DNA of 64,000 nt from Luteolibacter pohnpeiensis (GTDB lineage: Bacteria; Verrucomicrobiota; Verrucomicrobiia; Verrucomicrobiales; Akkermansiaceae), in contig NZ_JAENIJ010000001.1 of the NCBI RefSeq assembly GCF_016595435.1, positions 62,001-126,000 of the forward strand. The letters run 5' to 3'. Position 1 is the first letter of the stretch. Each line of letters begins with the position of its first letter. Of the stretch, positions 47,289-53,607 are shown in pieces. Position numbers and translations under genes: made by a program. Under the pieces are notes generated by a model, which saw only the letters and a list, made by a program, of their open reading frames with translations, did not search any database and was not told the DNA's origin.

Positions 47289-49457
47289 TCAGGGAATCTG
47301 ATTGAACAGCTCCTTCAAGACTTCCGGAGAAAGCAACTCGGGAGCGATGATGGGCTCTTCTCTGCCTGGAATGTAGAGGACATTGACCGGGATCGCATCA
47401 CGATGGAGCTCGGTGAGCTTGGCGTCGATTTCAGGATCGGGATTGGTCTTGTCGGCTTTGAAGGCGACGATGTTTTTCTGCTTCATCAGCTCCACGATTT
47501 CAGGTGGGTAAGCCCGTGCTTTGTTGAGCTGGCAGGTGAGGCACCATTTCGCGGTGAAATCGACATAGACCGGCTGTCCGGCAGCAAGGCGCTGCTTCAC
47601 CTCGTCCGATGTCCAATGCTGCCAATCCACTTTGGCAACGTTCTTCCCGGCGGCATTGGTTGGAATCGGCCATGGCCACGCGGCGGCGACACCTGCACCG
47701 AGAAATGCCAACGATAGAACCCAGGCTGTTACGCGGACTCTGAACTTGCGGTAAGGCTGGCTCCAACGACCGTAGATCCATGCGGCGCAGGCGATGGCGC
47801 TCAGCCCACCCATGACCCACAGTCCTTTTTGGCCTTCATTGCGTTCAAAAACCTGGTTGCTGTAAACCCAGAGAAAGACACCGGCTGCGGCAAAAAGCAG
47901 GAACGACATGCCTTGTTTGAAGGACTCCATCCACGGGCCGGGACGTGGCAGTTTATCCACCAGCTTCGGAAAGGCGGAAAGGACCAGGTAGGGTGTGGAA
48001 AGCCCCAGTGCCATGGCGGCAAAGGCGATGAAGAACGGAATGGCTGGCAGGGTGGAGGCAGCACCAATGGCGACGCCGAGGAATGGGCCGGAGCATGGAG
48101 TGGCAACCAATGTCGCCAAAACGCCTGAGAAAAAGGTGCCTGCGATACCATCCTTTTGCATCAGCTCTCCGCCGACGCTGGTCGCTGAGGTGCCGATTTC
48201 AAAAACGCCGAACAGATTCATGCCAAGCAACAGCATGATGACAACCGTGAGAAAGATGACCCGTGGGTCCTGCAGTTGATTCCCCCAGTGGGCGATTCCG
48301 CCAAAAAAGAGGGCGACCGAGAGGACTCCGAATGAGATCAGCACACCAAGGGTGAAGATCAGGCCATGAATCATGACTTTGTTGCGATCGTGCCCAGCTT
48401 GCTGGACGAAACCCATAATTTTCAACCCAATCACCGGAAAGACGCATGGCATGAGATTCAGGATCATTCCGCCGATGAACATGCCTCCGACGATGAAAAG
48501 AAATCCACTGAAGGAATTGGCAGCCGCCTTCTGGGTCAAAGCGGTCTTCGAATCTGATGTCGCCGCAGTTGCGCCTGGCTGAGTGATCGAGGTGTCGGGG
48601 ACCAGGATGGCTTGGGTGCCAGCTGCTGTGGTGATGACCGCGATGCCGGAAAGTGAATTTCCAACCGGAATCGGTTCACCGTTAATATCGATACTGACAT
48701 GAGAGAGGGAAACGCTGAATGTTCCTGATTTAAGCGCATCTGGCTTTTTCCCTTCAAAAGGCTCAATGAATGGTTGGTTCGGGAGGAATTCGATCGATTG
48801 GATGTCCGCCACTTGGCCACCAGCTGCAGTCATCTGTAGTACCGTCGTTGCGCCATGATCGATTGCTTCGAATTTCCAATCGGTAGCTTCATGCGGCAAA
48901 TGGGACCGGGCATCTTCAAAGAACTTTGTCAGTTTGGCGTCTTTGGAAGCTTCAGCGGAAGAGTTCAGGGTAACGCTGAGATTGCTGCTTTCAAAGTTGC
49001 AGTTGGAATCGGAGCAAATTTGCCAACTGGCGTCTGCAGTCAAGGTGATGGATTGACCTGAAGGAAGCTCTGAAGGAGGGGTGATTTCGACGAGAAAAAC
49101 CGGATTGTCTGCATAGACCAGGCTTTTGTAAGCTGGAGTTTGCTTGATTTCAGGCACTGGCCATTGAATCGGCCCTGCTGTGAAGCCCGCAGGTAGTTTC
49201 CACTGAATGGCGGGTGGCGTTTCTATTCCTCCAGAGTTTTTGTAGTAGCTGTGCCAATTGGCAGGGTGCTCAAGCGACAAGGCCAGGGTGAACGGCTGAC
49301 CCGGGGCAATGCTGGTATTTTCAGATAACAAATTCGCCTTGGACTTGGCGTTCTCACCTGTTTCCCCGAATCCTAAATCCGGTGAGAGTGAAAACTGCGC
49401 ATGAGCTGAGGCGCTGAATGCGGCCAGGGCGATGGTGGAAAGAAAAAATCGGAGCAT
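47289..49457 (-). CDS. dsbD: Thiol:disulfide interchange protein, DsbD family
   Basis: The 722-residue protein has a signal peptide (ending SAHAQF). The N-terminal DsbD-alpha-like domain (about 25-280) contains the cysteine pair SWQICSDSNCNF. A CcdA-like membrane core of eight helices (about 320-570) has GGMILNLMPCVFPVIGLKIM with the first redox cysteine and ATPCSGPFLG with the second. The C-terminal thioredoxin domain has AKWCLTCQLNK. It carries electrons from cytoplasmic thioredoxin to periplasmic proteins, and could feed the two thioredoxin-like proteins at 20260 and 44331. It is convergent with cinA. Confidence 0.95.
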   Translation of the reverse strand: MLRFFLSTIALAAFSASAHAQFSLSPDLGFGETGENAKSKANLLSENTSIAPGQPFTLALSLEHPANWHSYYKNSGGIETPPAIQWKLPAGFTAGPIQWPVPEIKQTPAYKSLVYADNPVFLVEITPPSELPSGQSITLTADASWQICSDSNCNFESSNLSVTLNSSAEASKDAKLTKFFEDARSHLPHEATDWKFEAIDHGATTVLQMTAAGGQVADIQSIEFLPNQPFIEPFEGKKPDALKSGTFSVSLSHVSIDINGEPIPVGNSLSGIAVITTAAGTQAILVPDTSITQPGATAATSDSKTALTQKAAANSFSGFLFIVGGMFIGGMILNLMPCVFPVIGLKIMGFVQQAGHDRNKVMIHGLIFTLGVLISFGVLSVALFFGGIAHWGNQLQDPRVIFLTVVIMLLLGMNLFGVFEIGTSATSVGGELMQKDGIAGTFFSGVLATLVATPCSGPFLGVAIGAASTLPAIPFFIAFAAMALGLSTPYLVLSAFPKLVDKLPRPGPWMESFKQGMSFLLFAAAGVFLWVYSNQVFERNEGQKGLWVMGGLSAIACAAWIYGRWSQPYRKFRVRVTAWVLSLAFLGAGVAAAWPWPIPTNAAGKNVAKVDWQHWTSDEVKQRLAAGQPVYVDFTAKWCLTCQLNKARAYPPEIVELMKQKNIVAFKADKTNPDPEIDAKLTELHRDAIPVNVLYIPGREEPIIAPELLSPEVLKELFNQIP

Positions 49458-50703: not shown

Positions 50704-51789
50704 ATGAAGAACTTCCATTGTCAAAAGTGCGGCGAGCGGCTGTTTTTTGAAAATACCCTTTGCCTGTCTTGCTCAAGTGCCCTGGGTTTTCTTCCCGATT
50801 TTACCGAACTTGCCGTGATTGAACCGGCAGGGGATCAGGAATTCAGCACTTTGGCTAAAGGAGCTGAAGACCGCCTTTATCGGAAGTGCGCGAACTACCA
50901 GCTGGAGAATGCCTGCAATTGGATGGTTCCCGCCGATGAAACGGATGGCTTTTGTTGTGCCTGTCGGCTTAACCGGATTATTCCCGATTTAAGTGGTCTG
51001 GAAAACCGCAAGCTGTGGGTCAAAATGGAGGCTGCAAAGCGCCGCCTCATCTATGGTCTGCTGCGACTGGAATTACCCATCGTTCCGAAATCCGTTGATT
51101 TGCAGAACGGTCTGGCATTCGAGTTTCTGGCGGACCAGCCTACGACAATGGAACAGCCGGATCAGGTGGCCCGCATTCTGACGGGGCACGCGGATGGGGT
51201 GATCACCATCAATCTGGCGGAGGCAGATGATGCGGTGCGTGAAAAGACACGCATGAACATGGGGGAGGCGTATAGGACTCTGCTTGGACATTTTCGCCAC
51301 GAAAGTGCTCATTATTACTGGGATCGATTGGTGAGAAATGATCCGGGAATAGATCAAGTGCGGGCGATTTTCGGCGATGAACGGAGCAATTATCAGCTCG
51401 CGCTGCAGAACTATTATCAAACTGGAGCGCCTATCGGTTGGGAATCTTCATTCGTCACCCCCTATGCCGCATCTCACCCTTGGGAAGATTGGGCGGAAAC
51501 CTGGGCGCATTACCTTCACATCATGGCAACGCTCGAAACTGCATCCGCTGCTGGCTTGCAAATTCGGAATCGTGCCCAGAATCGCGTTCTTGCGTCTCCT
51601 TTTGGTAGAAATTTTTCGGAAATTCGCGAAGACTGGCATGCACTGCGATTCGTGGTGAATAGCCTGAATCGCAGTATGGGAATGGCTGATCCTTATCCGT
51701 TTATCCTCTCTGATGCGATCACTGAGAAGCTCTCCTTTATCCATCATTGGATCCGGAAAGACCGCGAGGTGGCCCAGTTAGTCGGCTGA
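50704..51789 (+). CDS. Zinc-ribbon zinc-metallopeptidase-like protein (Peptidase_Mx type)
   Basis: The 361-residue protein has an N-terminal zinc ribbon with CQKCGERL and CLSCSSALGFLPDF, and a second cysteine cluster (CANYQLENACNW...CCACRLNR). The catalytic zincin motif HESAH lies near residue 201, with a downstream EDWAETWAHYLH that could provide a third ligand. This layout is typical of putative zinc-binding metallopeptidases of the Mx family. It has no signal peptide and is probably cytoplasmic. Its stop codon lies one base before the sigma-54 promoter of small RNA 1. Confidence 0.88.
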   Translation: MKNFHCQKCGERLFFENTLCLSCSSALGFLPDFTELAVIEPAGDQEFSTLAKGAEDRLYRKCANYQLENACNWMVPADETDGFCCACRLNRIIPDLSGLENRKLWVKMEAAKRRLIYGLLRLELPIVPKSVDLQNGLAFEFLADQPTTMEQPDQVARILTGHADGVITINLAEADDAVREKTRMNMGEAYRTLLGHFRHESAHYYWDRLVRNDPGIDQVRAIFGDERSNYQLALQNYYQTGAPIGWESSFVTPYAASHPWEDWAETWAHYLHIMATLETASAAGLQIRNRAQNRVLASPFGRNFSEIREDWHALRFVVNSLNRSMGMADPYPFILSDAITEKLSFIHHWIRKDREVAQLVG

Positions 51790-51790
51790 T

Positions 51791-51807
51791 TTGGCACGGC
51801 CATTGCT
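51791..51807 (+). promoter_or_regulatory. Sigma-54 promoter of small RNA 1
   Basis: TTGGCACG-N4-TTGCT is an almost exact match to the sigma-54 consensus, with GG at 51793-51794 and GC at 51805-51806 (ten bases between). Transcription should start near 51818. It needs an enhancer-binding protein, which is not encoded in this window. Confidence 0.8.
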
Positions 51808-51817
51808 TTTGCATTTC

Positions 51818-51900
51818 TCGTCGTGGCATACAAATGGCCCGACTGAGATGCCTTTGGTTAATGGGTTTTCCGAAGGATGATCAGTCGGGCCATTTTCTTT
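51818..51900 (+). ncRNA. Candidate sigma-54-dependent small RNA 1
   Basis: The predicted RNA of about 83 nt has a short leader and then one long hairpin. The outer stem is 13 bp (ATGGCCCGACTGA at 51834-51846 with TCAGTCGGGCCAT at 51881-51893). An internal loop (GATG opposite ATGA) follows, then an inner stem CCTTTGG/CCGAAGG (51851-51857, 51870-51876) closed by a 12-nt loop TTAATGGGTTTT. It ends in TTTTCTTT, so the hairpin also serves as terminator. The same architecture recurs at 52178 with compensatory changes. It lies in a gap without protein genes. Confidence 0.75.
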
Positions 51901-51925
51901 GTACATCATTCTTTGTACATCATTC
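51898..51925 (+). repeat. Tandem 14-bp duplication after small RNA 1
   Basis: TTTGTACATCATTC occurs twice without a gap (51898-51911 and 51912-51925), overlapping the end of the terminator T-run. It is not present after small RNA 2. Confidence 0.8.
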
Positions 51926-52150
51926 TTTTTGCTTCTTTTGGCGGTGCTTTTCACAGAGCAAATCCTGACCGCAGTCCATGTCTCTCCGGACACCTTCAGC
52001 ATCCGATGATCGATGGATCAATCGCGTGTTTCAGTAAAGCTTTGAGCCGCAATGGCTTCGTCAATCCAGACAAGCCATATCTAGCAAATCATGAGCAAAT
52101 GGCAGCCTCTGAACAAATTTCTACGAAGTTTTTGGCGATTCGCCGAAAAC
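51926..52150. other. Spacer between the two small-RNA units
   Basis: About 225 bp without a supported gene. As the region upstream of small RNA 2 it may contain enhancer sites for the sigma-54 activator, but I could not pick out a clear repeated palindrome. Confidence 0.4.
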
Positions 52151-52167
52151 TTGGCACGACCAATGCT
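52151..52167 (+). promoter_or_regulatory. Sigma-54 promoter of small RNA 2
   Basis: TTGGCACG-N5-TGCT with GG at 52153-52154 and GC at 52165-52166 (ten bases between). It differs from the first promoter at two spacer positions only. The predicted start is near 52178. Confidence 0.8.
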
Positions 52168-52177
52168 TTTCTTCAGG

Positions 52178-52266
52178 TGTCGCGACACTAAAGCAGGCGG
52201 TCCGACTGAGATGCTCTAAGGTTAATGGGTTTTCCGCGGAGATGATCAGTCGGGCCGCTTCTTTTC
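52178..52266 (+). ncRNA. Candidate sigma-54-dependent small RNA 2
   Basis: The predicted RNA of about 89 nt starts in a short perfect palindrome GTGTCGCGACAC (52177-52188). The main hairpin has outer arms GCGGTCCGACTGA (52197-52209) and TCAGTCGGGCCGC (52246-52258), the same internal loop GATG/ATGA, a weaker inner stem (CTCTAAGG with CCGCGGAG, two mismatches) and the identical loop TTAATGGGTTTT. A T-rich tract (TTCTTTTC) follows. The outer A-T and T-A pairs of copy 1 are G-C and C-G here, so the helix is preserved although the sequence changed. Confidence 0.75.
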
Positions 52267-52291
52267 TATGCAGAAGTTGTAGGTAATACAA

Positions 52292-52327
52292 CAAAAAAGT
52301 CCCCTGCCTCCAAAATGAAGCAGGGGA
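52292..52327 (-). terminator. Terminator of the flavin reductase operon
   Basis: A 7-bp perfect inverted repeat (CCCCTGC and GCAGGGG) is followed on the minus strand by a run of six T (plus-strand A-run 52294-52299). Confidence 0.88.
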
Positions 52328-52403
52328 ATCTGTCGAAGAATCTCGAAACCTCATGGATTGAGGCGCAATGACTTTCGGAAATCGAAAGCCATCGCGAATC
52401 CGG

Positions 52404-52973
52404 TCACTTCGAGGATTCAATCAGCGATTGGACGAGTCCACGAATCTGTTGTGTCAGAGCGTCATCTTTCAATGCTCCATTTTCATCGAAGGCGAGATGT
52501 GATTCCGCAACGGTGACTTGGGCAGGAATGACCTGTGTGCCGATATTTTGCAGGATCAAGCGGAGCGAATCCAAGCCGCGGACGCCACCGTAGTGCGATG
52601 GCGAGGCTGCCAAAATCGCGGCCGTCTTGCCCTTGAAAATGGCGGCCGGTCCTTCTGCTTCCTCGTCAGCACGCGAAATCCAATCGAGCGCATTTTTCAA
52701 GGCACCACTGATCGCGCTGTTGTATTCAGGCGAGGCAATGACGTAGGCGTCATGAGCCGCGAACAATGCCTTGAGTTCCTTGGCTTTTTCCGGTTTTCCG
52801 GATTTTTCTTCATCGTCCTGATTGAAAACCGGAAGAGGAAAGTCCGCCAGGGAGGATAAGGTGACTTCCGCGCCCAATTCTGAGGCTTCTTTCGCGGCTA
52901 GTGCTGCGAGCGCCTGATTGAAGGAGGCGGCACGCATGCTCCCGCCAAAAACAAGAATTCGAGGTGTTTTCAT
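52404..52973 (-). CDS. NADPH-dependent FMN reductase family protein
   Basis: The 189-residue protein has a flavodoxin-like fold. The phosphate loop is FGGSMRAASFN (about residues 8-18), and SPEYNSAISGALKNALDWIS (about 80-100) is the conserved flavin and dimer segment. It should reduce FMN, quinones or azo compounds with NAD(P)H in the cytoplasm. It follows the YceI gene by 7 bp and probably shares its transcript. Start 52973 (MKTPRILVFGG) is chosen over an open frame to 53015 that would overlap YceI. Confidence 0.92.
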   Translation of the reverse strand: MKTPRILVFGGSMRAASFNQALAALAAKEASELGAEVTLSSLADFPLPVFNQDDEEKSGKPEKAKELKALFAAHDAYVIASPEYNSAISGALKNALDWISRADEEAEGPAAIFKGKTAAILAASPSHYGGVRGLDSLRLILQNIGTQVIPAQVTVAESHLAFDENGALKDDALTQQIRGLVQSLIESSK

Positions 52974-52980
52974 GTTCCGA

Positions 52981-53607
52981 TCAGGCTTCAGGTTTCGCTT
53001 CCATTTTGAGCTCAACGACCACTTCGTCGCGGATCAAGTCGTCGGCTTTGCCAGCATAGACAATGTTGAAATCCTTGCGATTGATATCGAACTTCGAATA
53101 GATCGCGACGCTCTCGCTGTTGCGGGTGACGGTCGCCGGAAACGAGATATTTTTGGTGACGCCGTGCAGGGTGAGGTTGCCGGCGACGGTGTAGCCAGTT
53201 TCGGAATCTTTCTTGATGGAAGTTACGTCGAAGGTGGATTTTGGATATTGATCGACATCGAAGAAATCGCTGCTTTTCAGGTGCGTCGTCAGCTTGTCGT
53301 CGTCCGCCCAAGCGGAATCCATGGTGATTTCGACTTTGTGATCGAGGCCGGTAGGCTCTCCATCCTTGATGGTGAAATAGCCGCTGAACGTTTTGAATCC
53401 GCCGTTGTGGCTGCCGGTCACCTTTGAGCCGATGAAATGGATTTCGGAGTTGGCGGTGAAGGTGTATTTGGTGCCGACAACTGCAGGATCGTCCGCTTTT
53501 TCCACAGCGGGTGCGACCTTGGCGGCTTCTGTCTTGTCAGCGGGATTTTCGCAAGAGGCGAACAAAACTGGGGCGGTGGCTGCCAGGGCGAGGTATTTGA
53601 ATTTCAT
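52981..53607 (-). CDS. YceI-like lipoprotein
   Basis: The 208-residue protein has a lipobox LFASC (Cys19). After an Ala/Lys-rich linker comes the YceI lipocalin-like domain (about 45-205), with HFIGSKVTGSHNGGFKTFSG, LKSSDFFDVDQYPKSTF and NLTLHGVTKNISFPATV. YceI proteins bind isoprenoid-type lipids in the periplasm. It is the first gene of a two-gene operon with a flavin reductase and is divergent from a LysR regulator, which is the probable controller. Confidence 0.93.
   Translation of the reverse strand: MKFKYLALAATAPVLFASCENPADKTEAAKVAPAVEKADDPAVVGTKYTFTANSEIHFIGSKVTGSHNGGFKTFSGYFTIKDGEPTGLDHKVEITMDSAWADDDKLTTHLKSSDFFDVDQYPKSTFDVTSIKKDSETGYTVAGNLTLHGVTKNISFPATVTRNSESVAIYSKFDINRKDFNIVYAGKADDLIRDEVVVELKMEAKPEA

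Follow-up and report, generated by a model that had tools for sequence, protein, structure and literature searches.

The two hairpin units examined here, which lie in tandem in a 64,000-nucleotide stretch of Luteolibacter pohnpeiensis DNA (the window), are on sequence evidence two members of a multi-copy Verrucomicrobiales RNA family, apparently undescribed until now. The members with sigma-54 promoters, the window's pair included, are probably regulatory RNAs produced when nitrogen is short; this nitrogen-linked role is drawn from a promoter type common to these RNAs and to nitrogen-uptake genes, and both transcription and induction are inferred. We found no description of sigma-54-dependent sRNAs in Verrucomicrobiota, or of such an sRNA family in Luteolibacter or Akkermansia, in the open-access literature; because the search covered only that literature, a prior description elsewhere is not excluded. 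One review counts just 8 sRNAs for the entire PVC group (PMC9029176). An Hfq-independent family that is conserved, multi-copy, and linked to nitrogen genes would give the phylum a specific, testable RNA regulator, and the same RNA under two sigma factors would offer a natural experiment in sRNA regulon rewiring.

The tandem pair and its RNA family

Searching the L. pohnpeiensis genome with the pair's DNA returned four additional copies, six in all, from which a covariance model (R1) was built. The locus contains the following features.

47289..49457, - strand: dsbD-like gene; a relative lies near an RNA copy in 11 sampled loci, the window's locus counted
50704..51789, + strand: Peptidase_Mx protein with a zinc ribbon (Pfam), upstream neighbor
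51791..51807, + strand: putative sigma-54 promoter of copy 1 (TTGGCACG-N5-TGCT; letters TTGGCACGGCCATTGCT), GG at 51793-4 and GC at 51805-6, lying as far from the RNA start as its counterparts in relatives
51819..51902, + strand: predicted sRNA copy 1 (R1 match of 86.7 bits, and fold), with a short leader, a 15-bp stem (51832-51846 with 51881-51895), loop GGTTAATGGGTTTTCC at 51856-51871, and a T-rich 3' end
52151..52167, + strand: putative sigma-54 promoter of copy 2 (letters TTGGCACGACCAATGCT), GG at 52153-4 and GC at 52165-6, from sequence match
52177..52188, + strand: palindrome GTGTCGCGACAC, the predicted 5' end of copy 2, from alignments; kept in most family members
52178..52265, + strand: predicted sRNA copy 2 (R1 match of 97.1 bits, E 9e-21 in the genome search, and fold), with a 15-bp stem (52195-52209 with 52246-52260), a GAUG/AUGA internal loop, loop GGTTAATGGGTTTTCC at 52220-52235, and a T-rich 3' end
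52404-53015, - strand: FMN reductase (Pfam), on the other flank of the pair

A preliminary description of this DNA had placed two sigma-54 sites of GG-N10-GC geometry 360 bp apart in a protein-free interval, each followed by a long hairpin. Both sites are where it put them, positions 51790-52403 hold no credible gene, and both hairpins fold far better than shuffled sequences (-38.2 kcal/mol, z -5.7, and -37.7 kcal/mol, z -3.9; 0 of 200 shuffles fold as well). Its RNA start at 52178 can be kept, while the one at 51818 has shifted, the conserved RNA beginning at about 51819. The promoters meet the criteria of the sigma-54 class in geometry (GG-N10-GC), in their TGGCAC/TTGC-like context, and in their fixed distance to the start. 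Promoter 1 abuts the stop codon of the Peptidase_Mx gene, and at another locus (L044) the C-terminus of the orthologous protein is likewise encoded upstream of a sigma-54 copy.

The 4.67-Mb genome has five instances of the exact promoter word, TTGGCACG-N5-TGCT, against a chance expectation of about 0.6 (arithmetic from 12 fixed bases and two strands), and the window's units account for two of them. Sufficient sequence was available for 106 related loci; in these, 39 strict sigma-54 sites fall 8 to 16 nt before the RNA start, exactly 11 nt in 33 of them, where the site density further upstream would predict 0.54. Because both the word count and this positional coupling so exceed expectation, the promoter-hairpin arrangement of the window is not due to chance. 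Absence of the pairing from relatives would have refuted the preliminary description; the pairing recurs there and thus supports the proposal of tandem sigma-54-dependent regulatory RNAs, whose transcription is inferred. The "twin" siblings of that description are a real tandem pair, but they belong to a larger family that is multi-copy across Akkermansiaceae.

The predicted family RNA is about 85 nt long. At its 5' end stands a small palindrome or hairpin, followed by a strongly covarying 15-bp stem with a G/U-rich loop of nearly invariant sequence, and then by a T-tract. All six genomic copies of L. pohnpeiensis have the 15-bp stem and a loop near GGTTAATGGGTTTTCC or GGTTTTTGGGTTTTTCC; five of them start with a TGTCGCGACA- or TGTCGCAAGACA-like sequence, the start of copy 1 having diverged. 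Across 87 copies, 99.2% of stem cells are paired and 9 of the 15 pairs have changed on both sides. In a covariation test, 13 pairs showed double changes with 96.7% of cells paired; none of 500 shuffles equalled the full structure on any measure, and sliding the structure out of register lowered the paired share to 33-59%. The terminal loop is the most conserved part, and little else is single-stranded. A run of at least four T's stands at the 3' end of 97 of 109 copies. The leader is UGUCGCGACA or UGUCGCAAGACA, and since single leader variants retain a small hairpin (for example CGUC-GAAA-GACG at L044 and UAUCGA...UCGAUA at L064), selection acting on the RNA is suggested, although this rests on a listing and not on a formal test.

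In the L. pohnpeiensis genome, R1 gives six strong matches and a weaker tandem member at C111:22397. It matches 91 of 195 Akkermansiaceae genomes, including 44 of 44 from the same genus, and many family copies stand in tandem, spaced about 180-390 bp. Among 388 phylum-wide genomes, matches to a wider model from 87 copies (R2) were confined to Akkermansiaceae. Weaker matches in other families of Verrucomicrobiales (E about 1e-5 to 1e-9) are uninspected, and one genus of the Akkermansiaceae (g3) has no match in the R1 or R2 result lists. Among named records, the family pattern turns up chiefly in MAGs of Akkermansiaceae and Verrucomicrobiaceae, and also in Rubritalea profundi and Luteolibacter marinus. 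Synteny is conserved at dsbD and pyruvate-carboxylase-like loci.

Some copies stand apart. At 12 loci of genus g7 (L050 and L053-L063, not L051 or L052), a sigma-70-like copy and a divergent biotin/pyruvate-carboxylase-like gene lie ~130-157 bp apart. Four other copies in that genus (L125-L128) lack the usual leader and share a conserved stretch (GGTGTAAGGC.ACTGCG...) ~130 nt upstream of the hairpin, which has no Rfam match; they are perhaps a longer RNA with an additional 5' domain. Two weak, divergent members in genus g14 (L121 and L130) have the loop GGTTATGGGGGTTTCC and are without the usual leader. An Acido-Lenti-1 match lies among four family copies, with one on either side of it, at L079:3024-3077 (38.6 bits, cut-off 37).

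Several candidates were rejected. A weak genome match at C122:2898-2943 is an ordinary terminator, model matches on the antisense strand are shadows of the palindromic hairpin, and pattern matches at L181, L184, and L197 look like chance; a genus-wide promoter-plus-leader pattern proved too loose against its control. Membership in a known Rfam family found no support, as cmscan with gathering cut-offs found a tRNA and nothing else in the window and a permissive scan of the interval gave matches at chance level. Nor is a coding function tenable, because the overlapping ORFs are mechanical and the loop AUG is absent from the subclass with a U5 loop.

Promoter subclasses and the sigma-54 regulon

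The preliminary description's attribution of the RNAs to sigma-54 holds for a subclass, but about 60% of sampled copies have another promoter, often sigma-70-like, so that sigma-54 control is a subclass property and not one of the family. Many of the other copies carry a TTGAC-type -35 box and a -10 region positioned for the identical RNA start. The loop differs with the promoter: UUAAU is found in 34 of 41 sigma-54 copies, whose predominant loop is UUAAUGGG, and the U5 loop in none of the 41, against 32 of 68 other copies. Related sequences are among the copies counted, and the counts do not represent independent events.

The five exact sigma-54 sites of the L. pohnpeiensis genome precede the two window RNAs, glnB (PII), amt, and one unassigned ORF. 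In seven genomes of the genus, the promoter word, otherwise exact but with Y at position 7, gave 35 sites, compared with 12 in a reversed control. Thirty-one of the 35 precede family RNAs (14), glnB (6), amt (7), or glnA, rpoN, ureJ/hupE, and an NMT1-type binding protein (1 each), and 4 are unassigned; ten of the RNA-linked sites were assigned by script, one (L304) by reading, and three by coordinates. Co-regulation with nitrogen genes through sigma-54, as predicted from these sites, holds for promoter type only.

The rpoN gene is present in 182 of 195 Akkermansiaceae genomes and in that of L. pohnpeiensis. The latter also encodes four clear enhancer-binding proteins; an RtcR and a PAS-kinase/NtrC-like pair are among them. 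The NtrB/NtrC-like pair is on a different contig from the window. A search for an enhancer site common to the sequences preceding glnB, amt, and the sigma-54 copies found none, so no activator can be tied to them. The RtcR-type activator adjoins a Ro60/TROVE-type gene, an RNA-repair arrangement (L299:1387-4758; G000, contig C99). Identity with Y RNA, by way of RtcR and Ro60, was considered because of a presumed resemblance of GGUCCGA to Y RNA; it was dropped, there being no Y RNA among the matches that the permissive scan of the interval against Rfam listed. The short 5' leader of glnB (L259, L311, L314, L326, L328, and L331) lacks an obvious Shine-Dalgarno sequence and contains an A/C-rich, ACCAATC-like motif that is conserved.

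Proposed mechanism and rival readings

We consider it likely that the window's units are nitrogen-regulated sigma-54 sRNAs, their transcription and nitrogen induction being inferred. Under nitrogen limitation, an enhancer-binding protein, probably of the NtrC type (itself an inference), would activate RpoN polymerase and yield RNAs of ~85 nt ending at their own hairpin terminators. The PII protein and the ammonium transporter would be co-produced, as would glutamine synthetase, RpoN, and UreJ in some relatives. The RNA may then work in trans without Hfq, its G/U-rich terminal loop most likely base-pairing with mRNAs at A/C-rich sites. No Hfq gene was found in 20 genomes, that of L. pohnpeiensis included, in a search that did detect Hfq in control genomes. 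Genome-wide matches to the loop complement showed no clear excess (59 versus 46 in the control, own copies included), and duplexes with the leaders of glnB, amt, glnA, and rpoN had ordinary energies that were not significant. AUUAACC in some amt leaders complements GGUUAAU, which is only a lead. Action by base pairing alone, an inferred mode that we prefer to protein titration, can be put forward only tentatively. Doubtful, though compatible with the data, is the idea of a regulatory RNA family native to Verrucomicrobiales whose near-identical hairpins, under housekeeping and nitrogen-starvation promoters, would have slightly differing loops, so that nitrogen state would shift the dominant loop variant and retune a shared, unidentified partner without Hfq.

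The hairpins could instead be decoys, the loop binding an RNA-binding protein or other abundant partner and the sigma-70 and sigma-54 copies together setting its free level, by the logic of CsrB or CrcZ. The conservation of the loop above all else, with little other single-stranded sequence, would suit such a role, as would several copies per genome under different promoters and the lack of a clear excess of loop-complementary sites. Known sponges, however, have repeated sites where each of these RNAs has a single conserved loop, and with no partner protein identified and no Hfq detected we regard titration as possible but unlikely. A nitrogen link that is merely incidental, the sigma-54 RNAs answering another enhancer-binding protein (RtcR and RNA repair, or the response regulator on contig C111), is allowed by the presence of four true enhancer-binding proteins, one of them the RtcR beside the Ro60-type gene, and by the missing enhancer motif; the most perfect sigma-54 sites across the genus nevertheless belong to glnB, amt, glnA, and the family RNAs, and we think this reading quite improbable. 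Copies that are dispersed, multiple, palindromic, and mostly intergenic might suggest selfish repeats of the REP kind, or mere terminators standing behind promoters by accident, but this reading is largely refuted by the fixed promoter-to-RNA spacing, the conserved synteny at the loci with dsbD and pyruvate-carboxylase-like genes, and the conservation of loop and leader, and we give it very little credence.

Comparison with known systems

REP/RAYT elements are mobile hairpins without promoters of their own or a conserved position, unlike the present family with its fixed promoter spacing and conserved synteny. Acido-Lenti-1 (RF01687) is likewise a short structured RNA, but of other bacterial phyla; it is a separate element at separate coordinates, and family members do not match RF01687. 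The Qrr RNAs of Vibrio form a sibling set of short sigma-54-dependent RNAs that require Hfq and have a role in quorum sensing. The window RNAs are also short sigma-54 siblings, but their family occurs in bacteria without detected Hfq, has a promoter type in common with nitrogen genes, and matches no Rfam sRNA.

CrcZ, CrcY, and CrcX of Pseudomonas are paralogous RNAs for nutrient use, driven by RpoN and an enhancer-binding protein, that sequester Hfq/Crc (PMC8657755). The window RNAs are also paralogs with RpoN-type promoters; unlike a CrcZ-type sponge, they have one conserved loop each, and no Hfq/Crc-like partner was found. NrsZ of Pseudomonas aeruginosa is an sRNA induced in nitrogen limitation by NtrB/C and RpoN, a processed 226-nt RNA encoded beside ntrC (PMC9308961). 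The window pair stands not beside ntrC but between Peptidase_Mx and FMN reductase genes, and its RNAs, in a host without detected Hfq, would be ~85 nt, hairpin only, and multi-copy, with no recognized sequence relation to NrsZ. NrsZ is even so the closest functional parallel, the likeness lying in co-regulation with nitrogen genes through sigma-54 and extending only to promoter type.
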